Of a stretch of DNA of 20,599 nucleotides, positions 2,034 through 20,202 are shown piece by piece (position 1 is the stretch's first letter; each line of letters starts with the position of its first letter). A program made the position numbers and the translations under genes. The stretch spans positions 1-20,599 of the IMG/VR virus record IMGVR_UViG_3300046000_005646. One strand, 5' to 3'. The stretch comes from a virus. Below the pieces are notes generated by a model, which ran no database searches, was not told the origin of the DNA, and saw nothing but the letters and a program-made list of their open reading frames with translations.

Positions 2034-3389
2034 ATGACAGATAAATTATCGGACTACGGTTGGGGCTTTCAAGTTAAAGTTCTTGCTGCTATGTTTACGG
2101 ATAGACTATTTTTACAGCAAATTTCAGATATTATACGTGCTGAATATTTTGAGTCTGATGCAAACAGTTGGTTATTAGATATCATATTAACACATTTCCG
2201 AGAATATAAAACACCGCCTAGCAAAGATGTTTTAAAAGTAAAAATAACGGAAATTGAAAATGACATATTAAAGGCAACCGTATTAGAACAATTGAAAGAT
2301 GTGTTCAGATATATGGAGTCAGATGACTTGACATTTGTAAAAGATGAAATTTTAAAATTTTGCAAGAATCAGGAAATTAAACAAGCTATAATGGATTCGG
2401 TTAGTTTGTTAAAACATGGAAATTTTGACGAAATAAAAAGCAAAATTGATAGTGCCATGAAAGCTGGCGCCGATACCAATATTGGATTAGAATATGTAAC
2501 GGATGTTGCTGCACGATACAATGAAGCAGCACGACATACAATAACAACCGGTTGGGATGTAATTGATGATTTGATGGATGGTGGACTAGCCCCAGGAGAA
2601 TTAGGAGTTGTAATGGCACCTGCGGGAATTGGTAAATCTTGGCTTCTTATCAATATTGGAGCAAATGCAGTAAAAGACGGAAAAACAGTTATACATTATA
2701 CATTGGAACTCAATGAAAATTATGTAGGCCAACGCTATGATTCAGTATTTACAGGAATTCCAGCACAAAATTTAAAAAATTATCGAGACGACATTGAAGC
2801 AAAAATGCTAACACTTAAAGGCGATTTAATTGTAAAATATTTTCCTACCAAATCAGTAGGAGTAATGGGCTTAAAGGCTCATATAGAAAAAACAATAATG
2901 CTCGGCAAAAAACCAGATCTGGTAATTGTGGATTATGGTGATTTGCTTAAAGTTAACATTAAAAAGGACAAGCACGAAGCCTTAGAGGACTTGTACGAAG
3001 AATTACGTGGTATGGCAGGGGAATATGAAATTCCAGTATGGACCGCATCACAAGCAGGAAGAAGCGCCTTAGAAGAGGATATTATTGAAGCAGACAAAAT
3101 TGCATCATCATATGGAAAAGTAATGGTTGCTGACTTTTTAATGTCGCTTTCTAGAAAGGTAGAAGACAAAATGTCAGGAACGGGTAGAGGTCACGTTATT
3201 AAAAATAGATTTGGACCAGATGGCATAACATTGCCATGCAAAATTAATACAAATAATGGACAATTTCAATTCTTTGAACCACAAACTCAACAAGGAAAAC
3301 AAACCACACAAATCATGAAAACAGGAGAAAACATGGTCAAGAAAAATTTAGCACAAAAGTTCAAAGATTTAGGCGGAACTTTAGGATAA
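2034..3389 (+). CDS. 41: Replicative DNA helicase, DnaB/gp41 family
   Basis: A 451-residue DnaB-type helicase, close in size to T4 gp41. The N-terminal 150 residues are helical and resemble the DnaB N-terminal domain. The RecA-like motor follows: TGWDVIDDLMDGGL leading into Walker A APAGIGKS (195-202), the HYTLEL element (221-226) and Walker B DLVIVDYGDLL (295-305). WTASQAGRS and a later VIKNRFGPDG segment match the sensor and arginine-finger region of DnaB-family proteins. It should form a hexamer that unwinds DNA ahead of the polymerase encoded at 10237-12756. A primase (gp61) is not visible in this window. A terminator follows the stop codon. Confidence 0.92.
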   Translation: MTDKLSDYGWGFQVKVLAAMFTDRLFLQQISDIIRAEYFESDANSWLLDIILTHFREYKTPPSKDVLKVKITEIENDILKATVLEQLKDVFRYMESDDLTFVKDEILKFCKNQEIKQAIMDSVSLLKHGNFDEIKSKIDSAMKAGADTNIGLEYVTDVAARYNEAARHTITTGWDVIDDLMDGGLAPGELGVVMAPAGIGKSWLLINIGANAVKDGKTVIHYTLELNENYVGQRYDSVFTGIPAQNLKNYRDDIEAKMLTLKGDLIVKYFPTKSVGVMGLKAHIEKTIMLGKKPDLVIVDYGDLLKVNIKKDKHEALEDLYEELRGMAGEYEIPVWTASQAGRSALEEDIIEADKIASSYGKVMVADFLMSLSRKVEDKMSGTGRGHVIKNRFGPDGITLPCKINTNNGQFQFFEPQTQQGKQTTQIMKTGENMVKKNLAQKFKDLGGTLG

Positions 3390-3394
3390 AAACA

Positions 3395-3404
3395 TATTTA
3401 TATA
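3395..3404 (+). promoter_or_regulatory. TATTTATATA element, possible late-promoter motif
   Basis: TATTTATAT occurs in four intergenic gaps here (3395, 12780, 13101, 19750), and I noticed it in no gene. Its reverse complement contains TATAAATA, the T4 late promoter consensus. At this site it sits between the helicase stop and the terminator and has no gene directly behind it. Function is unproven. Confidence 0.25.
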
Positions 3405-3408
3405 AAAT

Positions 3409-3439
3409 GGGTTAGGAAAGTGATTTCCGCCCTTTTTTT
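3409..3439 (+). terminator. Rho-independent terminator after the helicase gene
   Basis: The stem GGG..GGAAA pairs with TTTCC..CCC around a GTGA loop and is followed by seven T residues. It closes the recombinase-nuclease-helicase unit and separates it from the ribonucleotide reductase gene. Confidence 0.85.
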
Positions 3440-3465
3440 ATCTAAAATCATTTACATATACAAAC

Positions 3466-3471
3466 AAGGAG
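3466..3471 (+). promoter_or_regulatory. Strong Shine-Dalgarno site for nrdJ
   Basis: AAGGAG ends 10 bases before the ATG at 3482. It is the clearest ribosome binding site in a window where most starts have little or no such signal, and it fixes the nrdJ start. The gap 3390-3481 otherwise holds the terminator and an AT-rich stretch in which I could not fix a promoter. Confidence 0.7.
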
Positions 3472-3481
3472 ATTACGAACA

Positions 3482-5338
3482 ATGGACATTTCAAACAAAA
3501 TTTTAAGTGAAATTACGGTATACATGAAGTATGCAAAATATCTTCCAAACCTCAATAGAAGAGAATCTTGGGAAGAACTAGTTACAAGAAACAAACAAAT
3601 GCATATTAAAAAATATCCGGCGTTAGTTGATGAAATCAATGCCGCATATGAATTTGTATATGCAAAAAAAGTATTGCCATCAATGCGTAGTTTGCAATTT
3701 GGTGGGAAATCAATTGATATATCACCCAACCGAATTTACAATTGTGCATATTTGCCAATTGATGACCACCGTGCATTTGGAGAAGCAATGTTTCTTTTAT
3801 TAGGAGGCACGGGTGTTGGATATTCGGTTCAAAAACATCATGTAGAATTATTACCAGAAATACATAAACCAAATCCAAAAAAGATGCGTCGTTATTTGAT
3901 TGCAGATTCAATTGAAGGATGGGCCGATGCAGTTAAGATGCTTGTTAAATCATATTTTGTTGGCGGATCATCTTACAATTTTGATTTTTCAGATATTCGT
4001 GCCAAAGGTGCAAGACTTGTTACTTCAGGAGGAAAGGCTCCAGGACCTCAACCATTAAAAGAATGTTTGATGAAACTGCAAGGAATTTTAGATACAAAAG
4101 AAGATGGCGACAAATTATCTCCAATTGAAGTTCATGATATGGTTTGCCATGTTGCAGATGCAGTATTAGCAGGTGGTATTCGTAGAGCAGCACTTATAGC
4201 ATTATTTTCAGCAGATGATGAAGAAATGATTGCATGCAAATCAGGTAATTGGTGGGAAATCAATCCACAAAGAGGTCGTGCTAATAATTCAGCTACATTA
4301 ATGAGACACAAATTAACAAAAGAATTCTTTATGGATCTTTGGAAGCGTGTTGAATTATCTGGAGCAGGAGAACCTGGTATATATCTTACAAATGATAAAG
4401 ATTGGGGAACTAACCCATGTTGTGAAATTGCATTACGTCCATTTCAATTCTGTAACTTGTGTGAAGTAAATGCATCTGACATTGATTCTCAAGAAGATTT
4501 TGAAAATCGAGTTAGAGCAGCAGCATTTATTGGAACATTGCAAGCAGGATATACCAACTTTCATTACCTACGTCCAATTTGGCAACGTACAACTGAAAAA
4601 GATGCACTTATTGGAGTATCAATGACAGGCATTGGATCTGGAACAGTATTGGGATATGACATGAAAGCTGCAGCAAAAACGGTTAAAACGGAAAATGAAA
4701 GAGTTGCTGCACTTATTGGTATTAATCGATCCGCACGAACAACCACAGTAAAGCCTGCAGGAACAACATCATTAACATTAGGCACAAGTTCAGGAATACA
4801 TGCTTGGCACAATGATTATTATATTCGTAGAATCCGTGTTGGAAAAAATGAAGCAATTTACACGTATTTAGCAAAAAATCATCCCGAGCTAATTGAAGAT
4901 GAATATTTCCGTCCACACGACACGGCAGTAATTTCTATACCACAACAGGCACCAGAAGGAGCAATTATGAGATTCGAGTCACCATTTCAATTATTAGATC
5001 GAATCAAAAAAGTTCATTTAGAATGGGTGAAGCCAGGTCATAGATCAGGAAACAATACACACAATGTATCGGCAACAGTTTCATTGAAAGATGATGAATG
5101 GGAATTAGCAGGTGATTGGATGTGGAACAATAGAGATCATTATAACGGCCTATCAGTTTTACCATATAATGGCGGAACCTATATTCAAGCCCCATTTGAA
5201 GATTGCACCAAAGAAACATATGAATCAATGATGAAATCTTTGAAGGGTATTGATTTGAGTCAAGTAATTGAATTGGATGATAATACAGACCTATCAGGCG
5301 AATTGGCTTGTGCAGGCGGAGCGTGTGAGATTAAATAA
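3482..5338 (+). CDS. nrdJ: Adenosylcobalamin-dependent ribonucleotide reductase, monomeric class II
   Basis: A 618-residue reductase that converts ribonucleotides to deoxyribonucleotides with a B12-derived radical. Key residues match Lactobacillus leichmannii RTPR: C88 (NCAYLP) for C119; NPCCE with radical cysteine C313 and E315 for C408/E410; C324, exactly 11 residues on, for the disulfide partner C419; and a C-terminal CAGGACEIK with C610/C615 for the redox-shuttle pair C731/C736. GGTGVGYSV, KPAGTTSLTLG and YNGGTYIQAPFE are further family signatures. It is about 120 residues shorter than the Lactobacillus enzyme (739), with 225 residues between the first and radical cysteines against 289. 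No N-terminal ATP-cone is evident. The class II type means that no iron radical subunit is needed, but B12 must come from the host. A thioredoxin encoded at 8961 is a plausible reductant. Its TAA overlaps the next ATG by one base. Confidence 0.93.
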   Translation: MDISNKILSEITVYMKYAKYLPNLNRRESWEELVTRNKQMHIKKYPALVDEINAAYEFVYAKKVLPSMRSLQFGGKSIDISPNRIYNCAYLPIDDHRAFGEAMFLLLGGTGVGYSVQKHHVELLPEIHKPNPKKMRRYLIADSIEGWADAVKMLVKSYFVGGSSYNFDFSDIRAKGARLVTSGGKAPGPQPLKECLMKLQGILDTKEDGDKLSPIEVHDMVCHVADAVLAGGIRRAALIALFSADDEEMIACKSGNWWEINPQRGRANNSATLMRHKLTKEFFMDLWKRVELSGAGEPGIYLTNDKDWGTNPCCEIALRPFQFCNLCEVNASDIDSQEDFENRVRAAAFIGTLQAGYTNFHYLRPIWQRTTEKDALIGVSMTGIGSGTVLGYDMKAAAKTVKTENERVAALIGINRSARTTTVKPAGTTSLTLGTSSGIHAWHNDYYIRRIRVGKNEAIYTYLAKNHPELIEDEYFRPHDTAVISIPQQAPEGAIMRFESPFQLLDRIKKVHLEWVKPGHRSGNNTHNVSATVSLKDDEWELAGDWMWNNRDHYNGLSVLPYNGGTYIQAPFEDCTKETYESMMKSLKGIDLSQVIELDDNTDLSGELACAGGACEIK

Positions 5339-5559
5339 TGATACAACCAGCATCAAAAGATTGGATACAACAAACCTTTGTAAGGGAGTTTGGAAACAAG
5401 CTCCTGGCTACGGACTTTTACTATAATGAAGACGGATATCGTGTAATGACTGAATCATATCATGTACGACGCGGATCATGTTGTGGTAATGGTTGTTTGC
5501 ATTGTCCATACACGCCAAAACATGAGACCAATAATACCAAGTTGAATAATATTTATTAA
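5338..5559 (+). CDS. Small cysteine-rich protein, DUF5522-like
   Basis: A 73-residue protein with the core RRGSCCGNGCLHCPY near residues 44-58. This CCxxxCxxCP arrangement after a YxxEDGYRVMTESYHV segment matches, from memory, a small family (DUF5522) common in Bacteroidota and of unknown function. The four clustered cysteines could hold zinc or an iron-sulfur cluster; that is inference. It begins on the last base of the nrdJ stop (TAATG), so it is probably co-translated with the reductase. This is one of the few clues to the host group. Confidence 0.7.
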   Translation: MIQPASKDWIQQTFVREFGNKLLATDFYYNEDGYRVMTESYHVRRGSCCGNGCLHCPYTPKHETNNTKLNNIY

Positions 5560-5560
5560 T

Positions 5561-6241
5561 ATGATTAAACTAAAAAATTTATTATTAGAAGTACATATTG
5601 ATAACAAATTCCAACGTGAATTAATTGATAGGATAAATGATGAGTATAGGGAAGATTACAAATCATTAACACCACAAGAAATTAACGATGGTTATTGTGA
5701 TATGTGGGCTTCATTGTTTGTGGATCGTTTTGGCGGAGATCATCAATGGTCTTTTGATTTTCCAAATGATCCAAATGGACATTCGTGGGTAAAATTAAAT
5801 AATAAATTTTATGATGCTGAAATGACTACGGGTACAACAAAATTAATAAATTTGCCGCATTTTCAACGAGCTATAAAAAAATATGGCACTGATTGGTTAG
5901 ATACTAAATTCTTTAATAATATTCAAAAAACAAAATATGATGCATCAAATATCAATAAAATTGAGGAAATAGGACCTCAAAATTTTATTGAGATGTATTT
6001 GGATTGGCTAGAAGAGTTATTAAATGATTTAGAAGATTCTAATGATATTGAAGCCATTAAACGGTACGATACAGTATTAAATGCTAGGTTTGCATTAGAA
6101 GATGCTGATTCTACGGAAATTATACAATATCTACAACGAAAATATGGCAATGATGTCGATCAGATAATATTAAAAATAATCGGCGATACAACAAAATATG
6201 ATGCATCAGGCATTGATACACCTGGCAATCCTAACATGTAA
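5561..6241 (+). CDS. Unknown protein with possible Cys-His-Asp catalytic triad
   Basis: I do not recognise this 226-residue protein with certainty. Residues 42-50 read NDGYCDMWA with C46 at the head of a helix. About 28 residues on comes GHSWVKLNNKFYDAE with H74 and D85. A cysteine at a helix start, then a histidine strand and an aspartate strand, is the order seen in papain-like/transglutaminase-like folds, so a peptidase, amidase or transglutaminase-like activity is possible. The rest (120-215) is acidic and helical, and TKYDASNI/TKYDASGI occurs twice (near 127 and 212). The first ten residues, MIKLKNLLLE, resemble the MIKLKTVLAE start of the protein at 12805. It starts 2 bases after the preceding stop and is followed by a promoter. 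Confidence 0.75.
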   Translation: MIKLKNLLLEVHIDNKFQRELIDRINDEYREDYKSLTPQEINDGYCDMWASLFVDRFGGDHQWSFDFPNDPNGHSWVKLNNKFYDAEMTTGTTKLINLPHFQRAIKKYGTDWLDTKFFNNIQKTKYDASNINKIEEIGPQNFIEMYLDWLEELLNDLEDSNDIEAIKRYDTVLNARFALEDADSTEIIQYLQRKYGNDVDQIILKIIGDTTKYDASGIDTPGNPNM

Positions 6242-6258
6242 TAAGTTTGCATAAAACT

Positions 6259-6286
6259 TTGAAATTCCAATAAAATATATTATATT
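6259..6286 (+). promoter_or_regulatory. Sigma-70-like promoter for the folE-queD-queE unit
   Basis: TTGAAA (6259-6264), a 16-base spacer and TATATT (6281-6286), 16 bases before the ATG at 6303. The expected start point leaves a leader of about 10 bases. The spacer shares CAATAAAAT with the promoters at 19721 and 20278. Confidence 0.5.
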
Positions 6287-6302
6287 AATATAAGAACAAG
6301 TT

Positions 6303-6992
6303 ATGACAAGAAAACATCTAGAAACAGTTGCCCCTGGATATGCGAACGGTATATCATTGCAATTAGCAGTAAAGCAAACTTTAGAAGGTCCTGACGCTCA
6401 ATTAACTCAGCAAGAAAAACAACAAATAATTGATAACGCTGCATATCATTACGGTTTATTTTTAACGGCACTAGGAGTATCTTGGGAATCAGATCCAAAT
6501 TCATCTAATACTCCTAATCGAGTTGCAAAAGCATATGTAAACGATTTATGGAAAGGCAGATATGAACCAATGTCAGACATTACTTCATTTCCAAGTGATG
6601 GGTATGACGGAATTGTATTCGAAGGCGGTATTCCATTAACATCAATGTGTAGCCATCATCACCAAACCATTTCCGGAAAAGTTCATGTTGCATATATTCC
6701 AGCAGAAAATGGAAATGTAGTTGGATTAAGTAAAATTAATCGAGTAGTAGAACATTTCGGCAGACGCGGAGCTATACAAGAACAATTAACTGTAGCAATA
6801 CAACATGCAATTGATGAACTTATAGAAGATAACAAAGGTGTTGCTGTAATGATTGAAGCAACTCATAATTGTGTATCTTGTAGGGGAGTAAAACATATAG
6901 GCGCTTCAATGAAGACCGCAAAATTATCCGGAGCCTTTTTAGATGATGGAAATGCTAGGTCTGAATTTTATCAATTTGTAAAAGGTTATTAA
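6303..6992 (+). CDS. folE: GTP cyclohydrolase I
   Basis: A 229-residue FolE that opens GTP to 7,8-dihydroneopterin triphosphate, the first step towards both folates and 7-deazaguanines. The zinc ligands expected from the family are present: C116 and H119 in MCSHHHQTISG, and C190 in ATHNCVSCRGV. The core GLSKINRVVEHFGRRGAIQE (141-160) and the HVAYIP strand are strongly conserved. The first 45 residues are not typical and look like a phage-specific extension. It leads a cluster that also holds QueD- and QueE-like genes, which points to 7-deazaguanine synthesis rather than folate. The stop overlaps the next start (TAATG). Confidence 0.95.
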   Translation: MTRKHLETVAPGYANGISLQLAVKQTLEGPDAQLTQQEKQQIIDNAAYHYGLFLTALGVSWESDPNSSNTPNRVAKAYVNDLWKGRYEPMSDITSFPSDGYDGIVFEGGIPLTSMCSHHHQTISGKVHVAYIPAENGNVVGLSKINRVVEHFGRRGAIQEQLTVAIQHAIDELIEDNKGVAVMIEATHNCVSCRGVKHIGASMKTAKLSGAFLDDGNARSEFYQFVKGY

Positions 6993-7291
6993 TGAAAAGA
7001 TTACACGTAAAATTAATTAAATGGATATCCAATAAATTTGGATACAAGATTGCAATGCTTAAAGCAGCAAACGGAACAACAACTGTTGAAGGAGATATTG
7101 AACTATTAAGATATGTTGATATATCCGGATATTTCTTTAAGAAAAAACCAATTTCTAGAATACAAGCTTCTAGAGCTCCAAGATCAGCCAAAGAAATGTT
7201 TTTAGCTGAACCAGTTCCTAATATTGATAATGTTGAACCGATAGTAAAACTTACATCGAAGCAACTTAAAGATTTACAAATAATAAAATAA
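6992..7291 (+). CDS. Small basic protein of unknown function
   Basis: I do not recognise this 99-residue protein. It is lysine- and arginine-rich through residue 70 (KRLHVKLIKWISNKFGYK, KKKPISRIQ), with a more hydrophobic and acidic patch at 73-85 and a lysine-rich end. No signal peptide or clear membrane helix is visible. It starts on the folE stop codon and ends 3 bases before the queD-like gene, so it is co-expressed with the 7-deazaguanine genes. Any link to that pathway is positional only. Confidence 0.7.
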   Translation: MKRLHVKLIKWISNKFGYKIAMLKAANGTTTVEGDIELLRYVDISGYFFKKKPISRIQASRAPRSAKEMFLAEPVPNIDNVEPIVKLTSKQLKDLQIIK

Positions 7292-7294
7292 ACT

Positions 7295-7759
7295 ATGGCA
7301 AAGTATAATTCAACAAAATTATTTGATGGTTACTCAACTTGTTTCCGGCAATGGCGAGCAGAGGATACTCATTGCAAATTCTTACATGGATATGCAGTAT
7401 CTTTTAAAGTTTGGTTCGAAGGCGAATTAGATCATCGTAATTGGGTATGGGACTTTGGTGGTATGAAGCGATCTAAAACTAAAATTGCTGGAATGTCTCC
7501 TATAGAATATTTTTCATTTTTGTTAGATCATACTACAGTTGTAGCTATTGATGATCCATATTTAGAGAAATTTCAACAAATGGATGAAGATGGTATCATA
7601 CAATTACGCATACTACCGGCAACAGGATGTGAAAAATTTGCAGAACATTTATATTATATAATCAATGCATTCTTAAAAGAAGAAACACAAAGTAGAGTAA
7701 AAGCAATAAAAGTAGAAGTTTATGAACACGAACGAAACAGCGCAAGCTACAGTGAATAA
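7295..7759 (+). CDS. queD: 6-carboxytetrahydropterin synthase-like protein (QueD/PTPS family)
   Basis: A 154-residue T-fold protein of the QueD type, which turns dihydroneopterin triphosphate into 6-carboxytetrahydropterin. Family hallmarks are the HCKFLHGY segment (26-33, catalytic-type C27 and H31), VWDFGGMK (51-58), LLDHT (D78/H79) and the ATGCEKFAEHL region (109-119, E113). Two of the three usual zinc histidines appear changed: the FxxAH histidine position holds C16 and LHGH is LHGY (Y33). FRQWRA..HC.FLHGY proteins are, from memory, a known variant group. Enzyme activity is likely but the altered metal site leaves some doubt. Neighbours folE and queE support the pathway assignment. The next gene starts inside its 3' end. 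Confidence 0.82.
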   Translation: MAKYNSTKLFDGYSTCFRQWRAEDTHCKFLHGYAVSFKVWFEGELDHRNWVWDFGGMKRSKTKIAGMSPIEYFSFLLDHTTVVAIDDPYLEKFQQMDEDGIIQLRILPATGCEKFAEHLYYIINAFLKEETQSRVKAIKVEVYEHERNSASYSE

Positions 7760-8123
7760 TGATACGTATGTATCACTTTATGAATATTTAGGTAAAGGGT
7801 CTCGAGACACCGGAGTTGGAAAACTAGTTTCGGCCGAAGCATTAAAACGTGGTATTAAACCTCAAGTTAAATTGCTGCCTAAAGAAATGCAAAGGCCAGA
7901 ATTTAATTCAGTACAAGCATACCCAATGTCATTCTTAGATGAATACTTTGCTAATAATCTAGAACATGATATGACGCCATTTGTACGAAGATCTGCATTA
8001 ACTATAGTACAAGCAAGAATTGATACCCTAGAAAAAAATTATGCAGAGTTAATTAAACTACTGCCAAATGCAACAATTGAATTAACAGCAGAAGATACAC
8101 AAGACGACGATTTACCATTTTAA
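7722..8123 (+). CDS. Unknown protein with SSB-like acidic C-terminal tip
   Basis: I do not recognise this 133-residue protein. Its last residues, AEDTQDDDLPF, closely match the acidic tip of bacterial single-stranded DNA-binding proteins (DDDIPF), which docks partner proteins. An OB fold is not obvious. The middle reads VSLYEYLGKG, then AYPMSFLDEYFANN, followed by a helix VQARIDTLEKNYAELIKLL with coiled-coil character. The ATG at 7722 overlaps the queD-like gene by 38 bases. An in-frame GTG at 7752 would cut this to 8 bases and start at NNDTYVSLYEYLG, so the true start may be 7752. It could be a DNA-binding or partner-recruiting protein, but that is inference from the tail alone. Confidence 0.7.
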   Translation: MNTNETAQATVNNDTYVSLYEYLGKGSRDTGVGKLVSAEALKRGIKPQVKLLPKEMQRPEFNSVQAYPMSFLDEYFANNLEHDMTPFVRRSALTIVQARIDTLEKNYAELIKLLPNATIELTAEDTQDDDLPF

Positions 8124-8125
8124 TT

Positions 8126-8899
8126 ATGAATAAAAGAATAGAAGATTACAACAAGACACTACCAATTCTAGAACTATACCGCTGTATACAGAGTGAAGGT
8201 TCAAGATTTGGACGTCCAACAATCGCAGTAAGAACTACCGGATGTACTCACCGATGCTTTTTTGGTGAAGGAGGGTGGTGCGACAGCTGGTACACAAGTA
8301 TTCATCCGGAAAAAGGAACATTTACGTTCCAGGACATTATTAACATTTATGATGAGAACCCACACATTAAAGAAATGATGTTGACGGGTGGATCACCCAC
8401 AATGCATCCAGCATTGGTAAACGAACTAACACACTTTGCACATGAAAGAGATATACTCATTACTATTGAAACTGAAGGTAGCCATTTCGTACCTACCGAC
8501 TATCCTATTGGCCTTATATCTCTCAGTCCAAAGTTTGGTAATTCTGTACCCGTACTTGGTGCTGTTACGCCTCAAGGAGCGATTGTGGATCAAAGAATGA
8601 TTGATCAACATAACAAGTTTAGAATGAAGCTTGCTACAATGAGCCAGATGATTCACTTCCATACAGATTACCATTTTAAACCAGTATGGGACGGAACGGA
8701 CAAGAATCTACAAGAAATTGAAAACATTCGCACTCTACTTAATATCCCAAAAGACAAAACATATATCATGCCCGCAGGAGATACTAGAGAAACTCTTGTA
8801 GAGATGTATCCACTCGTATTCGATATGTGTGCTGAGAAGGGATATAACATGACCGGCAGAGACCATATAATTGCATTTGACACTAAACGAGGAGTATAA
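8126..8899 (+). CDS. queE: Radical SAM 7-carboxy-7-deazaguanine synthase-like (QueE)
   Basis: A 257-residue radical SAM protein. QueE contracts the 6-carboxytetrahydropterin ring to 7-carboxy-7-deazaguanine. The N-terminus YRCIQSEGSRFGRPTIAVRTTGC is the QueE signature. The cluster cysteines are C40, C44 and C52 in GCTHRCFFGEGGWCDSW, a CX3CX7C spacing in place of the usual CX3CX2C. QueE proteins with unusual spacings are known. The next motifs are MMLTGGSPTMHP (SAM-binding GGE-like region) and ITIETEGS. SLSPKFGNSVP follows, as in QueE. The gene starts 2 bases after the previous stop and its stop overlaps a tiny ORF (TAATG). Together with folE and the queD-like gene it gives a complete route from GTP to 7-carboxy-7-deazaguanine. 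No QueC is in this window. Confidence 0.9.
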   Translation: MNKRIEDYNKTLPILELYRCIQSEGSRFGRPTIAVRTTGCTHRCFFGEGGWCDSWYTSIHPEKGTFTFQDIINIYDENPHIKEMMLTGGSPTMHPALVNELTHFAHERDILITIETEGSHFVPTDYPIGLISLSPKFGNSVPVLGAVTPQGAIVDQRMIDQHNKFRMKLATMSQMIHFHTDYHFKPVWDGTDKNLQEIENIRTLLNIPKDKTYIMPAGDTRETLVEMYPLVFDMCAEKGYNMTGRDHIIAFDTKRGV

Positions 8900-8964
8900 T
8901 GAACTACACAGTAACAACAACATTTGGAAATAACGTAAAAATTACATATATTATAACAAAATGA
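8899..8964 (+). CDS. Possible 21-residue leader peptide
   Basis: ATG at 8899 overlaps the queE stop (TAATG) and the ORF ends in TGA overlapping the thioredoxin ATG (ATGA). It encodes MNYTVTTTFGNNVKITYIITK. The tight junctions on both sides suggest translational coupling from queE to thioredoxin. A promoter-like sequence lies inside it, so the stretch may be regulatory rather than coding. Confidence 0.3.
   Translation: MNYTVTTTFGNNVKITYIITK
8924..8952 (+). promoter_or_regulatory. Candidate promoter for the thioredoxin unit
   Basis: TTGGAA (8924-8929), a 17-base spacer and TATATT (8947-8952), 8 bases before the ATG at 8961. As at 2034 and 13216, the expected start point falls at the start codon. 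It lies inside the 21-codon ORF, and the sequence is weaker than the other candidates. Confidence 0.35.
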
Positions 8965-9212
8965 AAAAGATACTTTATTTTACAGCAGATTGGTGCGGAC
9001 CATGCAAAATGATTAAACCACAGCTTCTAGAAGCTTCTAATCAAATATCAATAACATTTATCGATGTAGATACAAATTCATCAACCGCAGAACGATACAA
9101 TGTTAAAAATATACCTTGTGCTATATTAATTGATTTAAATGGCCAAGAAAATGGAAGATTGGTTGGATCAAATATATCTAAACAATCAGTAATAAATTTA
9201 TATAACAAATAA
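8961..9212 (+). CDS. Thioredoxin
   Basis: An 83-residue thioredoxin-fold protein with the classic active site ADWCGPCKMIKP near residues 9-20 and the cis-proline segment NIPCAILID near 50-58. It is shorter than bacterial thioredoxin (about 105) and lacks the first strand and helix, as phage thioredoxins and glutaredoxins often do. It should pass electrons from a host reductase to protein disulfides. The most likely client is the class II ribonucleotide reductase at 3482, which has the shuttle cysteines C610/C615. It is followed closely by the GroES-like gene. Confidence 0.9.
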   Translation: MKKILYFTADWCGPCKMIKPQLLEASNQISITFIDVDTNSSTAERYNVKNIPCAILIDLNGQENGRLVGSNISKQSVINLYNK

Positions 9213-9228
9213 AAAAAAAGAATCAGTT

Positions 9229-9528
9229 ATGAATTGGAAACCAATTGGAGATCAAGTACTCCTAAAACAACTAGAAAAACAAGACAAAACAAAGAGTGGT
9301 ATCATTATAATGAACTCATTGGATGATTATATTGAATGTGATGTTATGGCCGCAGGAGACGGGTTATTTACGCAAACAGGTACAAAAATACCAATGACTG
9401 TTAAAGTTGGAGATCGCATAAAAATCTATTCCGGAAATTTAGGAGCACAAAAGAAAGTGCAAGTAGAAAATAACGATTTTATTTTGGTTCGAGAACATGA
9501 AATTGCTATGATAAATACAAAACCATGA
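9229..9528 (+). CDS. GroES-like co-chaperonin (functional analogue of T4 gp31)
   Basis: A 99-residue protein whose sequence follows the Cpn10/GroES pattern: WKPIGDQVLLKQLEKQDKTKSGIII at the start with the mobile-loop region after it, then PMTVKVGDRIKIYSG (55-69) and NNDFILVREHEIAMI at the end. Co-chaperonins cap host GroEL. T4 gp31 replaces GroES so that the major capsid protein can fold. This one keeps much clearer GroES sequence similarity than gp31 does. The DNA before the ATG is A-rich with only a weak AAGA-type ribosome site. The gene overlaps the next by 4 bases (ATGA). Confidence 0.85.
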   Translation: MNWKPIGDQVLLKQLEKQDKTKSGIIIMNSLDDYIECDVMAAGDGLFTQTGTKIPMTVKVGDRIKIYSGNLGAQKKVQVENNDFILVREHEIAMINTKP

Positions 9529-9761
9529 TTGAAATCTTAGGGTGGCTTAGTACAACCTTAGTTTTAGCTGGATATGTATCAAATGCTAGAGGGTGGACTA
9601 AGACAGCCATGATTACCTGGATTATAGGAGATACTGGATGGATTACGTATGACTTTTTTATTGATAATTTTAGTCATCTTGTATTAAGTTTAGTTATTAT
9701 AGCAATTAATGTTTACGGAATTTATAGATTATGGAAAAACTTATCAGTCAAGAAAAAATAG
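9525..9761 (+). CDS. Small membrane protein, three predicted helices
   Basis: A 78-residue hydrophobic protein with probable membrane helices at about 2-20 (EILGWLSTTLVLAGYVSNA), 28-46 and 50-69, and a basic end (RLWKNLSVKKK). The first helix and the YVSNARGW turn are reminiscent of PnuC-like and similar small transporters, and three helices would fit a half-transporter that dimerises. That is inference. It starts in the ATGA overlap with the GroES-like gene, and its last 31 bases are shared with the phosphoribosyltransferase gene. It might handle a nucleoside or base, given its salvage-gene neighbour. Confidence 0.7.
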   Translation: MIEILGWLSTTLVLAGYVSNARGWTKTAMITWIIGDTGWITYDFFIDNFSHLVLSLVIIAINVYGIYRLWKNLSVKKK

Positions 9762-10237
9762 CACACCGAGTAAAACGGTTAGCAAAAGAAATTTCAAAAG
9801 ATCATATACAAAGCGGTAACACGTTGCCACCAATAATGATTTGCATATTAAATGGTTCTATACATTTCTTTTCAGATTTAATTAGGGCAATGAAAATTGA
9901 TTGTGAAATTGATTTCATTCGATTAAAATCGTACAAAGGACAAGATAATTCAGGCGGTATACAAGTCCTTAAAGGATTGGAATTAGAATTAAAAGGTCGT
10001 CGAGCATATATTGTTGATGACATTTGCGATTCTGGCAGCACACTATTAGAAGCACTGTTTATGTGCAATAGTAAATTAGTACAAGAAGTTAGAGTTGTTA
10101 CATTGTTGAAACGCAAAGATGGTGTCGATATGACTGATTTTTGCGGATTTACTATCGACAAAGAATGGGTTGTGGGCTATGGGCTTGACAATAATGGAAC
10201 ACAACGAGAATTACCACACATATATAAATTAAATTAA
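9731..10237 (+). CDS. Hypoxanthine (guanine) phosphoribosyltransferase
   Basis: A 168-residue type I phosphoribosyltransferase. The PRPP-binding loop AYIVDDICDSGSTLLEA is at about 92-108. The early PPIMICILNGSIHFFSDLIRAM matches the flexible N-terminal core of Hpt, and VVGYGLDNNGTQRELPHIY at the end is the Hpt signature for purine binding. It would make IMP or GMP from free purine and PRPP, feeding GTP and dGTP pools. GTP is also the precursor of the 7-deazaguanine pathway encoded just upstream. The ATG lies 31 bases inside the membrane protein gene and the stop overlaps the polymerase start (TAATG). Confidence 0.85.
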   Translation: MEKLISQEKIAHRVKRLAKEISKDHIQSGNTLPPIMICILNGSIHFFSDLIRAMKIDCEIDFIRLKSYKGQDNSGGIQVLKGLELELKGRRAYIVDDICDSGSTLLEALFMCNSKLVQEVRVVTLLKRKDGVDMTDFCGFTIDKEWVVGYGLDNNGTQRELPHIYKLN

Positions 10238-12756
10238 TGTATAAAGCAATCGGTTATGATAAAAAAGCGGGCATCATGCACGTTTGGGATGATGAATTAG
10301 GACATCGCAAATTTCCTTTTCAGGCATATGGATATTTACCAAATCCAAATGGAACATATCAAGCACTTGACGGAACACGATTGAATCAAGTACCTGGCAA
10401 TCATCGAGATAATCCTAAATCATATGAATCTGACTTAAATGAAGAAGTTAGAACATTGATTGATTTATATTATGAATCAGATGAGCCGTCTAAAGGACAT
10501 AAAGATTTCTTTTTTGATATTGAAACTGCAAAAGATGAAAATGGCTTCAGCACAATACAAGATGTTCGCACCGCAATTACTTCGATTGCATATTATGATA
10601 AAGCAGGAAAAGATCGAAGAGTATTGATCTTAGACGAACAAGGTCGCATCAAAGAACGTGAAATACAAGGCGAAGGATATGCAATAGAAATATTCCGCAA
10701 TGAAAAAGATCTATTAACTAGATTTATCAACATATTTGCACAAATACAACCAACAGTTATAACCGGGTGGAATACAGACGGATATGATGTTCCTTATTTG
10801 TTAGGCCGATGCAAAAAAGTATTGGGTGCACAAGCAATCAAGAAATTTTCTCCTGCCGGCATAGTAGAACAAGGCAGAACCGGTAAATGGAAGATACTTG
10901 GAGTTTCTAGTTTAGATTACATTAAATTGTATAAAAACTTTACATATACCGAACTACCTAATTATCGATTAGACACAGTTGCTAAAAAAGAATTGGATCG
11001 AGGTAAAGTTGAATATGATGGAGACTTGGATACATTGTTTACCCAAGATATTCATAAATTTGCATATTATAATATGACGGATGTTGATCTTGTTTATGAA
11101 ATGGATGAAAAGCTTCAACTTTTAAATTTAGCAAGATCGATTTGTCACAAAGGGCATGTTCCATATGAAGATGTATATTATGCATCCAAATATTTGGATG
11201 GTGCTGCCATTGTTGATTTAAAACGCAATGGATTTGTTGCACCGAACAAGCAATTTAGATTTATTGAAGAAGAAACAATGGCAGATGCATTAGCTGGTGC
11301 ATATGTAATGGCACCTGTACCTGGCCTGTATAAATGGATATATGACTTAGATTTAACTTCATTGTATCCAAGCATCATTATGACTGCAAATATATCTCCA
11401 GAAACTAAAGTAGGAGTTGTAGAAAATTGGAATCAAGAATGCATGTTAAACTCAGATTCAATGCCGGCTACAATAACATTGGCTTCTGGTAAAACACAAC
11501 AAGTTGATAATGTTAAAACATGGTTGGCACAACACAATTATAGTATTGCTAGCAACGGCGCTACATATAACAATGAACAACGAGGGTTTCTTCCAACTAT
11601 TCTAGAAAAATGGTTTAATGAACGTGTTATCTTTAAAGATAAGCGTGACACATTTAAATTTGGTACAGAAGAATATAAATTTTATGATGCATTGCAATTA
11701 ACACAAAAAGTATTGCTTAATTCATTTTATGGAGTTTTAGGACTTAAAACATTTCGTTTCTATGATTTAGATAATGCCGGAGCTATTACAGCAGTAGGTC
11801 AAAGTGTAATAAAATTTTCAGCTAAGGTTATTAATAACTATTACAAAAAAGAATTGGGAGTTGACCACTTTATTAATGATAGCGGAGACAAAGCAGAATT
11901 TGCATTTTACACTGATACGGATTCAACCTTTTGTAGCAGTTTGCCATTAATTGAACACCGATTTCCTGGATGTGACACTAACGATGAAACATTCATGATT
12001 GAACAAACTAATGCAATTGCATCTGAAATACAAACAACGGTTAATACAATGTATGACCAATATGCAAAAGTATTCCATAATACAACCGCACATCGATTCC
12101 AAATTAAACAAGAATATATTGCAAAATCCGGTTTATGGATTGCCAAAAAAAGATATGCCCAATGGGTTATATTCAAAGAAGGCAAATCTACGGATAAATT
12201 GGATGTAAAAGGATTAGATGTTGTTAGATCCAGTTTCCCGGAAGATTTCAAAAAGATAATGAAAGAAACATTGTGGTATATCCTTAAAGGAAGAAACAAG
12301 CAAGATACTTCAACATTGATACATAACTTTAAAAATAACATTAAAAGTTCCAAAGTATTGAATGTAATGAAGAATTCAAGTGTTAAAGAATTATCTAAAT
12401 ATATCAAAAAACGTAAACCGTTTACCGGTTATATAAAAGGATCGACAGCACACGTAAAAGCCGCAATTAATTTTAATGATTTATTGAGTACATTAACTAC
12501 GGATATATTACCTATATCAGACGGCGAAAAAGTAAAGTGGGGCTATTTAGTAGGCAATCCGTACGGGTTTGAAACTATTGCATTACGAGGTTATTTAGAT
12601 CCACCCGAAATAGTTGCATTTGCAGAACAATACATTGATCACAATAAAATGTTCACGGCAGACCTAAGCAACAAATTCAATGATTTCTATGCAGCAATGA
12701 GTTGGGGTGCATTACCAGAAAATAACAATGCAAAAAAGTTTTTTAACTTTGGATAA
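10237..12756 (+). CDS. 43: DNA polymerase, family B (T4 gp43-like)
   Basis: An 839-residue replicative polymerase with proofreading exonuclease. Exo I is FFFDIETA (D94/E96). The TGWNTDGYDVPYL segment near 177-189 matches Exo II, and YYNMTDVDL near 277-285 matches Exo III. Polymerase motif A is DLDLTSLYPSII from D370, motif B is KVLLNSFYG (494-499 for LNSFYG), and motif C is YTDTDST with D560/D562. KKRYAQWVIF fits the KxY element, and the C-terminal end should carry the clamp contact. T4 gp43 is 898 residues, so this is a slightly compact version. I see no intein or break. It belongs with the gp41, gp45, gp44 and gp62 homologues of this window. Confidence 0.96.
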   Translation: MYKAIGYDKKAGIMHVWDDELGHRKFPFQAYGYLPNPNGTYQALDGTRLNQVPGNHRDNPKSYESDLNEEVRTLIDLYYESDEPSKGHKDFFFDIETAKDENGFSTIQDVRTAITSIAYYDKAGKDRRVLILDEQGRIKEREIQGEGYAIEIFRNEKDLLTRFINIFAQIQPTVITGWNTDGYDVPYLLGRCKKVLGAQAIKKFSPAGIVEQGRTGKWKILGVSSLDYIKLYKNFTYTELPNYRLDTVAKKELDRGKVEYDGDLDTLFTQDIHKFAYYNMTDVDLVYEMDEKLQLLNLARSICHKGHVPYEDVYYASKYLDGAAIVDLKRNGFVAPNKQFRFIEEETMADALAGAYVMAPVPGLYKWIYDLDLTSLYPSIIMTANISPETKVGVVENWNQECMLNSDSMPATITLASGKTQQVDNVKTWLAQHNYSIASNGATYNNEQRGFLPTILEKWFNERVIFKDKRDTFKFGTEEYKFYDALQLTQKVLLNSFYGVLGLKTFRFYDLDNAGAITAVGQSVIKFSAKVINNYYKKELGVDHFINDSGDKAEFAFYTDTDSTFCSSLPLIEHRFPGCDTNDETFMIEQTNAIASEIQTTVNTMYDQYAKVFHNTTAHRFQIKQEYIAKSGLWIAKKRYAQWVIFKEGKSTDKLDVKGLDVVRSSFPEDFKKIMKETLWYILKGRNKQDTSTLIHNFKNNIKSSKVLNVMKNSSVKELSKYIKKRKPFTGYIKGSTAHVKAAINFNDLLSTLTTDILPISDGEKVKWGYLVGNPYGFETIALRGYLDPPEIVAFAEQYIDHNKMFTADLSNKFNDFYAAMSWGALPENNNAKKFFNFG

Positions 12757-12760
12757 CAAA

Positions 12761-12789
12761 TTGTTTTTTTTTTGTGTTATATTTATATG
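12761..12789 (+). promoter_or_regulatory. Candidate promoter and late-type element upstream of the first leader protein
   Basis: TTGTTT (12761-12766), 17 bases and TATATG (12784-12789). The T-rich spacer makes the -35 call weak. The same place carries TATTTATAT (12780-12788), also found before the second leader-protein gene at 19750. An AAGGA ribosome site follows 5 bases before the ATG at 12805. Confidence 0.35.
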
Positions 12790-12804
12790 TAAATAAGGAA
12801 AATT

Positions 12805-13095
12805 ATGATAAAATTAAAAACCGTACTTGCAGAAAATATGCGCCGATTTGGTACGAAAAACTTAAACGAAGGAATGTTCAGTAATTTTTTACAAAGTATA
12901 TTAGGAAAAACTGATGCGATGGTTGATTTTCTTACTATTTTAGAATTTGCAAGAAAAGATAAAGACGGAGAAAACGCCGATGAAGCGGTTCAGTATTTAA
13001 TGGATAAACATAATGTATCTGCAGATGAAGCGTTAAAAACTGTTACCCATGTTTATGAAAAATTTGGTCCATGGATCGAATTAACTAGAAAATAA
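12805..13095 (+). CDS. Small protein with capsid-targeting-like N-terminal leader
   Basis: A 96-residue protein of unknown function beginning MIKLKTVLAENMRRFGTKNLNE, a leader shared with the protein at 19780. LNE followed by G at residue 22/23 fits the (L/I)xE cleavage rule of T4-type prohead proteases, which would release a mature chain of 74 residues. The remainder is largely helical and acidic (KDKDGENADEAVQYLMDKHNVSADEALKTV) and includes an EALKTV-type helical repeat like a UBA or similar three-helix bundle; that fold is a guess. AAGGA just upstream gives a good ribosome site. The gene stands alone between a promoter and a terminator. A head-packaged internal protein is my preferred reading. 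Confidence 0.75.
   Translation: MIKLKTVLAENMRRFGTKNLNEGMFSNFLQSILGKTDAMVDFLTILEFARKDKDGENADEAVQYLMDKHNVSADEALKTVTHVYEKFGPWIELTRK
12829..12871 (+). repeat. 43-nt direct repeat encoding the shared leader, copy 1
   Basis: Identical base for base to 19798-19840 and in the same reading frame. It encodes the AENMRRFGTKNLNE leader core. The mature parts of the two proteins show no evident similarity, so the repeat is limited to the leader. Confidence 0.95.
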
Positions 13096-13100
13096 ATAAT

Positions 13101-13130
13101 TATTTATATGTAAGATAAAGAACCAAAATG
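13101..13130 (+). promoter_or_regulatory. Orphan leader-like sequence with TATTTATATGTAA
   Basis: TATTTATATGTAAGATAAAG followed by ATG (13128) resembles TATTTATATGTAAATAAGG ahead of the 12805 start. The ATG here opens only a three-codon ORF (MTN then TAA), so no gene follows. It may be a remnant of a lost gene start or a functioning promoter element. Confidence 0.3.
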
Positions 13131-14393: not shown

Positions 14394-15431
14394 ATGAAAA
14401 TATTTTTAGTAGACTTAGAATCAATACCGACACGATATACTTGCGAGTGGAAGACACATGTTCCACAATTATTGCGTGATAATGGATTTGATGTTCAAGT
14501 TATAGAAGGAGATCATACAATTCCAGAATCAACAACACCTGGTGCATTTTTGAACTTTGGTGGTACTAACATGTACAAAGCAACACAGCTTCACAAGTTG
14601 TCTGAATTATTTACATTAGGTAAGATTACCGCAGGAGACCATATCATTTTTACAGATGCATGGCACCCAGCTATTATCAATGTAAAATATATGAGTGAAC
14701 TTCTAAATATTCCGGTTGTAATGCACGGACTTTGGCACGCGGGTTCATATGACCCGAATGATTTTTTAGGTCGGCTCGTAGGAGATAAACCATGGATTAG
14801 GCACGCTGAACAAGCCTTTATTGGAGCACTAGATCATAATTGGATTGCAACCGCAGCACATTTTCAAATGATATGTAAAACATATGATGTATTTTTAAAT
14901 TCAACGTTTGATCAAACAGGCTGGCCAATGGAATATACCCATAATATGATTACGCCTAAACCATTTAATGAAAAAGAAAATATTATTGTTTTCCCGCACC
15001 GAATAGCACCTGAAAAACGATTAGATTTGTTTCAAGAATTAGCATCGCAGCCAGAATTAGCACATTATCAATTTATTGTAGCAATGGATCTAAATTTGAC
15101 TAAAACACAATATCATGAACTTCTTCAAAGAGCAAAGTTTGCAGTATCATTTGCAGATCAAGAAACATTGGGAATTTCAATGTATGAATCAGCTTGTGCA
15201 GGAGCATGTACAATTGTTCCTAATAGATTATCATATATGGAAATGTATCATCCTATGTTTAAACATGCAGATTCAGTAAATGAGGCTGTGGCTGCAATAT
15301 TAAAATATGAACAACAAGACTTAACAAATGATATTGCTAAATTAACAAATTATTTACATGACCGATTTTTTTCAGCAACAAGATTAATTAATTTACTAAA
15401 AGAATATAAAAACAATGAAAGAACAAGATAA
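14394..15431 (+). CDS. GT-B fold glycosyltransferase
   Basis: A 345-residue glycosyltransferase of the GT4-like type. The C-terminal half holds IIVFPHRIAPEKRLDLF (a donor-binding HRxxPEKR element, near 200) and ADQETLGISMYESACAG with the EX7E pair E257/E265. CTIVPNRLSYMEMY follows. The N-terminal half has a Rossmann-like start, MKIFLVDLES, and VVMHGLWHAGS. I chose the ATG at 14394, which is 1 base after the previous stop, over an in-frame TTG at 14382. The acceptor is unknown: modified DNA, as for T4 glucosyltransferases, or a surface component are both possible. The DpdA gene begins inside its last 17 bases, so the two are tightly coupled. Confidence 0.85.
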   Translation: MKIFLVDLESIPTRYTCEWKTHVPQLLRDNGFDVQVIEGDHTIPESTTPGAFLNFGGTNMYKATQLHKLSELFTLGKITAGDHIIFTDAWHPAIINVKYMSELLNIPVVMHGLWHAGSYDPNDFLGRLVGDKPWIRHAEQAFIGALDHNWIATAAHFQMICKTYDVFLNSTFDQTGWPMEYTHNMITPKPFNEKENIIVFPHRIAPEKRLDLFQELASQPELAHYQFIVAMDLNLTKTQYHELLQRAKFAVSFADQETLGISMYESACAGACTIVPNRLSYMEMYHPMFKHADSVNEAVAAILKYEQQDLTNDIAKLTNYLHDRFFSATRLINLLKEYKNNERTR

Positions 15432-16677
15432 GCGGTTCATATATTTTCCGTCGTTGTCTGCAGGCTCAATGGTCTCGGCATTCAAGAAAGATATGAAATT
15501 TGAAAATGGAGACCCGGTAAAGTTCTTCGACTCAAGATATCCAGATAAGTGGAGGCACCCATATTTTCTAATCACAGCAGGACACCATTACAAGAAAATG
15601 GATTTCCGAGACACGATGGGCTTAGAAAAAGATGTTCTAGTATTTGGAGATTCAGGAGGATACCAAATAGCAACAGGAGCATTACCATATAGCAACGAAT
15701 TGCGCGAAAAAATATTTCATTGGTTAGAAGCTAATAGTGATGTAGCAGCAAACTTAGATATTCCACCTAAAACAAAATATCGAAATAAATTTGCAGAATG
15801 TGCTGACATTAGTTATGACAATTTTGCTTATTTTGAAAAACATCAAAGCGGTAAGACAAAATACCTTAACATGTTGCAAGGCTCTAACACTGATGAATAT
15901 ACTTGGTGGTATCATAAATTTAAACATTTTGATTTTCAAGGTTGGGCAATTGGAGGTCCACAAAAATTAGTAGACTTTATGTTTGCGGTTGCATTGATGC
16001 TCAAAGAAAAAACATTTGAAAATCCTAGACTAGAATATTTGCACTTATTGGGTATTAGCAAAATATCCGACTTTTTTATTCTAGCAACATTGCAAAAATT
16101 AATGAATAAAAATTATGGCAATAGAATCTATGTAACAACGGATTCATCATCGCCAGGACAATATCCGGTATTTGGAACATATCTTCATTCAGCAAATTAT
16201 AAAACACAAACCTTTTCGGAATTGTATTTTCCTAAAAATGCTGAATATAGAAGACAAGCTCATATTCGTCAAGGAAAAATTGGAGAAGTATCTATTGATC
16301 TATCACAACATGTACCATGTGCATTACATTGTCCAGCATGCACCGACTTTACATATGATTTGCTAGGAGGAAAAACAGATGCTGGATTAGATCGATATTC
16401 ACAAGAAGCTATGCCTAGAATGGTTGTTCACAATGTGCATTTATATGTGCAATGTGCAGAAGAAATCAATCAACTAGTAGACAGCCATGTAGAATTGCTA
16501 GAAACAGTAATACCAAGAGACTTGTATGATGTTATCTTGTCACTGCATGAAATGTTTGCCGATCCTGACGCAGCATTACAAACATATGAAAAATATATTA
16601 AAACATATAAAAAGTTTGGTGGAAGTAGTATATCAACCACCGATGCCGAAAATTTCAATAAATACTTTACATTTTAA
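15415..16677 (+). CDS. dpdA: DpdA-like 7-deazaguanine DNA transglycosylase (TGT superfamily)
   Basis: A 420-residue homologue of tRNA-guanine transglycosylase. TGT features in order: FGDSGGYQ with D79 (general acid/base-type aspartate), NLDIPP with D115, MLQGSN (154-158) and WAIGGPQ (177-183) equivalent to the QGG/GG substrate loops, and VTTDSSSP with D243 in the nucleophile position. A zinc site is formed by C302, C306 and C309 (CALHCPAC) plus H339 (VVHNV). The CX3CX2C spacing differs from the CxCx2C of tRNA enzymes. DpdA proteins exchange guanine in DNA for a 7-deazaguanine. Phage context, folE/queD/queE nearby and replisome neighbours favour DNA over tRNA as the substrate. A TGT acting on tRNA cannot be excluded from sequence alone. 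Confidence 0.87.
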   Translation: MKEQDKRFIYFPSLSAGSMVSAFKKDMKFENGDPVKFFDSRYPDKWRHPYFLITAGHHYKKMDFRDTMGLEKDVLVFGDSGGYQIATGALPYSNELREKIFHWLEANSDVAANLDIPPKTKYRNKFAECADISYDNFAYFEKHQSGKTKYLNMLQGSNTDEYTWWYHKFKHFDFQGWAIGGPQKLVDFMFAVALMLKEKTFENPRLEYLHLLGISKISDFFILATLQKLMNKNYGNRIYVTTDSSSPGQYPVFGTYLHSANYKTQTFSELYFPKNAEYRRQAHIRQGKIGEVSIDLSQHVPCALHCPACTDFTYDLLGGKTDAGLDRYSQEAMPRMVVHNVHLYVQCAEEINQLVDSHVELLETVIPRDLYDVILSLHEMFADPDAALQTYEKYIKTYKKFGGSSISTTDAENFNKYFTF

Positions 16678-19779: not shown

Positions 19780-20202
19780 ATGAAAAAAAACATCTTAGCA
19801 GAAAATATGCGCCGATTTGGTACGAAAAACTTAAACGAAGATGAAGATCAAAATAACAATGGATACCCAGATGATTCCGAATCAGTCCTTAAAGGCGGAA
19901 CTGGAATTGATGGTATTAAACGATCCACCGGGAATAAAGTAAAACAATTTATTAAACTAATAGGTAAAGATTCTGTAGATTGGTTTGATAACTTAGATGT
20001 TAATTATCTCCCATCACAATATGCGTCAGCATTAAAAAAATTAGGAATTAATCAACATACTGCATTAGTAGCACCATATGAGCTTCGAGGTAATGATATT
20101 AGCGATATTATCAATGCAGCAAATCAATCTAATATACGCTATATTGAAATTTTAGACAGAGCCGGAGGCGGGCGACTAATTATATTTACATCAAGACAAT
20201 AA
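19780..20202 (+). CDS. Second protein with capsid-targeting-like N-terminal leader
   Basis: A 140-residue protein beginning MKKNILAENMRRFGTKNLNE, the leader shared with the 12805 protein. Cleavage after LNE (residue 20) would leave DEDQNNNGYPDDSE at the new N-terminus, a stretch like the calcium-binding DxDxDGxPDxxE repeats. The C-terminal 90 residues read as an alpha/beta domain (NQHTALVAPYELRGNDISDIINAANQ, then YIEILDRAGGGRLIIFTSRQ). I do not recognise the fold. AAAGGA upstream is a good ribosome site, and the gene stands alone between its promoter and a terminator. It is probably made in quantity and packaged in the head. Confidence 0.75.
   Translation: MKKNILAENMRRFGTKNLNEDEDQNNNGYPDDSESVLKGGTGIDGIKRSTGNKVKQFIKLIGKDSVDWFDNLDVNYLPSQYASALKKLGINQHTALVAPYELRGNDISDIINAANQSNIRYIEILDRAGGGRLIIFTSRQ
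19798..19840 (+). repeat. 43-nt direct repeat encoding the shared leader, copy 2
   Basis: Exact copy of 12829-12871 in the same reading frame. The flanking bases differ on both sides. Confidence 0.95.

Follow-up and report, generated by a model that had tools for sequence, protein, structure and literature searches.

A phage protein family with an SSB-type C-terminal tip encoded among 7-deazaguanine DNA-modification genes

The SSB protein of E. coli was reported to end in the residues DDDIPF (PMC5872125), and the SSB tip was described in abstracts to dock on many proteins of DNA metabolism. The 7-deazaguanine gene clusters of phages were shown to include genes of unknown function (Hutinet 2019, PMC6884629, legend of Fig. 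3), and genes for queuosine synthesis were reported to be widely found in the genomes of Bacteroidetes viruses, including T4-like viruses (PMC7198788). The DNA analysed here, called the window throughout, is a stretch of 20,599 nucleotides from a virus (IMG/VR record IMGVR_UViG_3300046000_005646) and was found to contain a small gene, designated X, whose product ends in an SSB-type tip and whose neighbours are genes of the 7-deazaguanine pathway. The link to 7-deazaguanine DNA modification was overlooked in an earlier note on this DNA and is the strongest clue to the function of X.

Gene X and the 7-deazaguanine genes of the window

The pathway set of the window was found to contain five genes, all on the plus strand. 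A folE-like gene for GTP cyclohydrolase I (6303..6992; TIGR00063, E 1.1e-43, below its cut-off) was followed by a queD-like gene of the 6-pyruvoyl tetrahydropterin synthase family (7295..7759; PF01242, E 4.9e-13; phrog_2389, E 2.1e-35), gene X (7722..8123) and a queE-like radical SAM gene (8126..8899; phrog_2076, E 7e-47; TIGR03365, E 8e-15, below its cut-off), so that X lies between queD and queE. The fifth gene, located about 7 kb past queE, encodes a likely DNA guanine transglycosylase of TGT/DpdA-like type (15415..16677; Pfam TGT, E 0.011, and TIGR00432, E 0.0034, both below cut-off) and was present in 9 of 9 related contigs. Its product contained the stretches DSGGYQ, QGS, GWAIGG, HLLG and CPAC, which were read by eye as TGT-like motifs; no TGT was found among its PDB sequence matches. 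QueC was not found in the five window-clade contigs searched, which may be fragments. The host of the window may be a member of Bacteroidota, with which the common presence of queuosine genes in Bacteroidetes viruses (PMC7198788) fits; Flavobacterium phage immuto, the cultured carrier of the X family, infects Flavobacterium.

Gene X starts with ATG inside the 3′ end of queD, whose stop is at 7759, and its stop is followed by 3 nt and then by the start of queE. From this overlap and this gap, queD, X and queE very likely form one operon. The product of 133 aa belongs to a family of small phage proteins that often bear an SSB-type tip. It was found to contain a conserved N-terminal domain from S18 to F76 (SLYEYLG...FLDEYF; 7773..7949, plus strand), delimited by alignments and modelled by AF2 in the order E-H-H-E-E-H. 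The domain is followed by a region of variable length, in which a long helix was predicted by AF2 of the window protein at residues 90-113 (7989..8060, plus strand); short family members contained no stretch matching this helix in the alignment. The C-terminal residues are AEDTQDDDLPF followed by the stop, with the SSB-type tip DDDLPF at 8103..8120 (plus strand) as read from the translation and from the alignment with relatives.

The reading frame with its DDDLPF end, to which the earlier note had drawn attention, was confirmed, and LPF followed by the stop was found at the same place in 14 of 14 relatives of the window clade. The codons of the L, P and F residues contained synonymous changes only (TTA/CTC, CCA/CCC/CCT and TTT/TTC, respectively; n=14). 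In the acidic part, the middle D was replaced by Y in 7 of the 14 and the last D by E in one of the 14. The agreement of these relatives shows that the 3′ end of X is not misread. In the stretches compared (window 2722-13120 and 3-1115), the window showed no difference from the IMG/VR contig IMGVR_UViG_3300046003_006174.

Two further features of these contigs were noted. Among otherwise different proteins (window 12805-13095, 19780-20202 and 5561-6241; L004, L007, L030), several were found to share an N-terminal peptide of the LAENMRRFGTKNLNE or KLKNLLLE type and others a C-terminal TKYDASGIDTPGxPNM; these peptides have the appearance of shared targeting tags, which may direct proteins into the head during packaging. 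At the start of a ribonucleotide reductase frame (L012:57-1103), the reductase sequence was found to be directly preceded by what resembles the end of an intein (...NHNFFANGILAHN).

Fold, family and C-terminal tip of X

A tblastn search with window X against 50,697 phage records gave no match at E <= 1, and the same search with one relative (L014) gave only Flavobacterium phage immuto, at E 1, whose X was later tied to the family through viral-contig relatives. Window X matched no Pfam family at E <= 1 nor at E <= 10. With the family members, nothing better than E 0.017 was found in PHROGs, Pfam and NCBIfam, and matches in the PDB sequence search were at E 0.42 or worse only. Foldseek against the PDB gave no match with E <= 0.001 for the X domain. 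Its best fold matches were to the Brucella effector 8af9 (Z 6.0 and 5.6, not significant), the others being SKI/Dachshund domains and XPA. In BFVD, five phage proteins were found at E <= 1e-4 to the model of the X domain, all of them named 'uncharacterized'; one of the five (A0A6J5M071) has a length of 344 aa. No publication describing X was found in the literature searches, most subscription papers being outside their reach, and as far as the literature was searched X is a previously undescribed phage protein family.

The AF2 model of window X had a mean pLDDT of 70, and a better model was obtained for the relative L058, with block means of 82-90 over residues 1-60 and the same order of elements. 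According to these models the X domain would not be an OB barrel, and here the view of the earlier note that the body shows no obvious OB fold was borne out: E-H-H-E-E-H is predicted, to which the window protein adds one helix. The fold searches hinted only weakly at a winged-helix arrangement, with weak matches to BldC (Z 3.6), to a mycobacteriophage Xis (Z 3.1) and to the winged-helix domain of the Mu transposase (Z 2.9). The predicted order and these matches would suit a small protein of winged-helix type that regulates transcription of the modification operon and whose tail is incidental. The Z values, however, are within the noise described for the tool and the conservation of the tip would be left unexplained, which makes such a regulator very unlikely. 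DNA binding would be no more than a possible role of the X domain, which gave no significant fold match and has only a weakly positive charge (median +2).

Members of the X family were found to consist of a domain of about 55 residues, a linker whose length differs widely between members and, in many of them, an SSB-type tip. The consensus of the domain in the alignment is SLYDYLGKAAGxxLGKxV...REVSNPKYxGxVxLYPKxFLDxYF. The family was sampled from viral-contig searches in which the best 80 of 277 and the best 80 of 276 relatives were kept. The 213 loci obtained, several of which repeat the same contig, gave 122 distinct complete proteins, and these form 31 clusters at 60% identity. The count leaves out frames truncated by a contig end, proteins longer than 220 aa and those that lack an FLxxYF-like end. 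In one ORF (L237), the only long reading among the loci, the X domain is preceded by a GPAIE-type repeat stretch of about 130 residues.

A strict tip, defined as [DEN][DEYNGS]?[LIT]PF at the C-terminus and so admitting TPF also, was found in 80 of the 122 members, the tail being conserved in homologues as the reading of the earlier note required; 42 members were without it. The commonest ends among the 122 were DDLPF (41), DELPF (11) and YDLPF (10). At least one tipped member was present in 23 of the 31 clusters, and half or more of the members were tipped in 18 of them. The first set of 102 proteins (71 tipped, 29 clusters) served for a control and for the lengths of the linker. Of 1,503 other ORFs of at least 60 aa in the loci of these 102 members, two ended in the strict tip, one of which is itself a piece of X, and the frequency of the tip in the family is thus far higher than chance would give. 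Tipped members of this set had between 10 and 58 aa separating domain and tip, and untipped members had 1 to 28 aa after the domain. From the range in the tipped members, the tip is retained while its spacing is free. The untipped members include the X of immuto, the only cultured phage found with the family, and since 42 of 122 are of this kind, the tip is not needed for the basic job of the domain.

An LPF end might also serve as a degradation tag keeping X short-lived, since in S. mutans the last three residues of SsbA, LPF, act as a tag for ClpXP (PMC5143411). In the same paper GFP-DDDLPF was unrecognised in E. coli, as were SsbA in S. gordonii and LPF in S. sanguinis (PMC5143411), and in the X family the residues before LPF stay acidic, which would be needless for a tag of three residues. 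A degradation tag is highly improbable on these grounds.

When 84,980 species genomes of bacteria and archaea were scanned with a single short pattern of the domain, 26 stretches were obtained, of which two were relatives. Both relatives were found in metagenome bins, directly upstream of queC, and as only these two were found in the scan, both in such bins, the family seems to be carried by phages. In the bin with the relative L085, the SSB gene reads through two TGA codons, so that this bin looks recoded and gives no Bacteroidota host name; the phage contig in it may be misbinned.

Pathway linkage and the separate gp32

A gene for FolE, QueC, QueD, QueE or a transglycosylase was found in the X locus of 109 of the 122 members and in 28 of the 31 clusters, the X loci of the other three clusters containing no pathway gene. 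The transglycosylase gene was found just upstream of X in 63 of the 122 and queC just downstream in 76, both being present in 60. Among 37 large contigs (at least 60 kb, hand-listed, some of them near duplicates), 31 had a pathway gene no more than 1.5 kb from X, against at most 7.7 expected from random placement under a generous estimate. Four of the six unlinked large contigs were searched for QueC, which was found elsewhere in G012 and G014 and was absent from G010 and G015. In the whole of this search, which covered nine records without a pathway gene near X, QueC was found elsewhere in four and was absent in five. QueC-like matches are rare in phages and were found in 209 of 50,697 phage records.

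The transglycosylase protein next to X had no Pfam match, and its immuto homologue, with 36% identity, is annotated as 'DNA guanine transglycosylase'. Homologues with 35-36% identity to one such protein beside X (L084:2699-3493) were also found in 14 Campylobacter phage records (H54-H67). Some Campylobacter phages were reported to have modified DNA and no known DpdA (Hutinet 2019, PMC6884629), and the homologue could be the insertion enzyme of these phages.

The pathway linkage is independent of the tip, since a pathway gene was found in the locus of 69 of the 80 tipped and 40 of the 42 untipped members. Linkage as strong without the tip as with it would be expected if X served the biosynthetic enzymes or the transglycosylase as a subunit or as a regulator, with the tip binding a phage protein of the complex and with a convergent likeness to SSB that involves no SSB-tip reader. 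Some of these genomes, however, have a gp32 with the same tip, which in the six contigs scanned (below) was found on no further picked ORF, and a purely enzymatic partner role of this kind was considered fairly improbable.

With the PF08804 profile, gp32 was found in 8 of 10 records and then in 20 of 25 contigs, giving 28 of 35 in total with the window record included; the search of the window record itself gave no gp32. The bacterial SSB profile PF00436 was found in 0 of the 10 and 0 of the 25 records, every one of them holding an X gene, and X itself matched neither PF08804 nor PF00436. In the contig identical to the window where compared, the stop of gp32 lies about 240 bp before window base 1, the gene being placed upstream of a recombinase gene and adjoining it. 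The recombinase is probably uvsX-like, and the end of the gp32, ASAFNDLFN, resembles the style of T4 gp32.

The remark in the earlier note that no other gp32 candidate was visible is true inside the window, but gp32 sits just upstream of the window start. Its proposal that X is the phage's own, diverged SSB in the role of gp32 did not hold. The tip alone speaks for it; a separate gp32 in 28 of 35 records, including the window-identical contig in which it adjoins the uvsX-like gene, together with a body not predicted as an OB fold, rules it out for practical purposes.

The gp32 proteins of the 28 X-carrying contigs were found to contain a PF-type tip in 11. Both X and gp32 were tipped in 8 contigs, X only in 10 (8 of which are the window clade), gp32 only in 3 and neither in 7. 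In the window clade, X is thus tipped and gp32 is without a tip. Co-variation of the two tips was not significant (p=0.69 for the 28 contigs; p=0.07 without the 8 window-clade contigs). In the tipped gp32s, the tip was often preceded by an FDxLF stretch resembling the one in the untipped gp32s, e.g. KADKFDALFEEDDDLPF. Such composite gp32 tails (L244-L249, L252, L255, L257, L258, L262) contained DLPF, SPF, MPF or GLPF, mostly behind FDxLF, and no mention of them was found in the literature searches.

In six contigs scanned for the tip, 974 ORFs of at least 50 aa were picked (G019 being covered to 120 kb and G002 minus its last 595 bases), and the seven matches were four X and three gp32 proteins, with no other. 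The X of G028 was absent from the picked ORFs, yet it is present and tipped. The SSB ends of four Bacteroidales records of the plasmid collection were DDLPF in three and ANMPF in one, and the residues of the X tip thus agree with those of Bacteroidales SSBs.

A small protein with a host-type DDLPF tip, in a clade whose gp32 is untipped, is what would be expected of a decoy aimed at the host, in which X occupies the pockets where host proteins of repair and recombination bind the SSB tip and bars these proteins from acting on phage DNA. The place of X in the operon would then reflect a shared role in DNA protection with no direct part in modification. Against this, gp32 is tipped in 11 of the 28 contigs, 8 of them with a tipped X, so that X would block partners which the phage's own gp32 could recruit, and the tight linkage to the modification genes is not explained by the decoy role itself. 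Such a decoy was judged unlikely.

A proposed docking role and comparison with known systems

An SSB-type tip that is conserved on a body for which no OB fold is predicted makes the recruiting or blocking of SSB-tip-binding proteins, as put forward in the earlier note, the natural reading of X. The conserved tip, its free distance from the domain, the unrelated body and the presence of gp32 as the phage's own SSB make a copied docking tag the best reading of the tail, and the linkage of the X body to the pathway genes points to 7-deazaguanine modification as its cargo. X would thus be an accessory of 7-deazaguanine DNA modification whose copied SSB tip docks on a reader of SSB tips and couples modification to replicating or recombining phage DNA, a reading to which we give a probability of roughly 0.5.

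In this proposal the N-terminal domain would do specific work, probably holding DNA or one modification enzyme, and the length-variable tail would end in a functional copy of the tip of bacterial SSB. The tip may dock in the pocket of an SSB reader, which could be a host replication or repair protein or a phage protein that also reads tipped gp32, and X would couple base modification to phage DNA under replication or recombination. The docking, the identity of the partner and the purpose of the coupling are what we infer for the tip. The most economical picture would be that of an adaptor, with the domain bound to the transglycosylase or to DNA and the tip bound to an SSB-tip reader at replicating DNA. 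A wider claim, put forward tentatively and held to be doubtful, is that X represents a new class of adaptor, in which the host SSB tip was copied by T4-like phages onto a dedicated small protein (and in several lineages onto gp32 too) and delivers the modification machinery to phage replication forks.

If the adaptor reading is true, it would account for the direction of a base-exchange enzyme to the DNA of the phage and not to that of the host, and a tip that steers modification to replicating phage DNA would bear on how these enzymes choose phage DNA. X would in any case be a widespread component of phage 7-deazaguanine modification that is described nowhere in the literature searched, with a six-residue tip as a testable handle. 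It is also a clear example of a protein unrelated to SSB that carries an SSB-interaction motif, the motif being present on gp32 as well in some lineages.

Compared with the described systems, X sits inside phage 7-deazaguanine clusters of the kind that contain FolE, QueD, QueE, QueC and DpdA (Hutinet 2019, PMC6884629), in the main text of which neither 'SSB' nor 'single-stranded' occurs and no Flavobacterium phage is named. The T4-like Bacteroidetes viruses with queuosine genes (PMC7198788) represent the same kind of phage and pathway as the carriers of X, and X is not mentioned where that paper deals with queuosine genes. The gp32 of T4 type (PF08804) occurs in the same phages as X and has a similar PF-type tip in 11 of 28 contigs, whereas it is encoded by a separate gene and X is without a PF08804 match. 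The bacterial SSB (PF00436) has an OB fold, in place of which X is predicted to contain a domain of about 55 aa in the order E-H-H-E-E-H with no OB fold; like X, it carries an acidic C-terminal tip of the [I/L]PF type after a stretch of free length.
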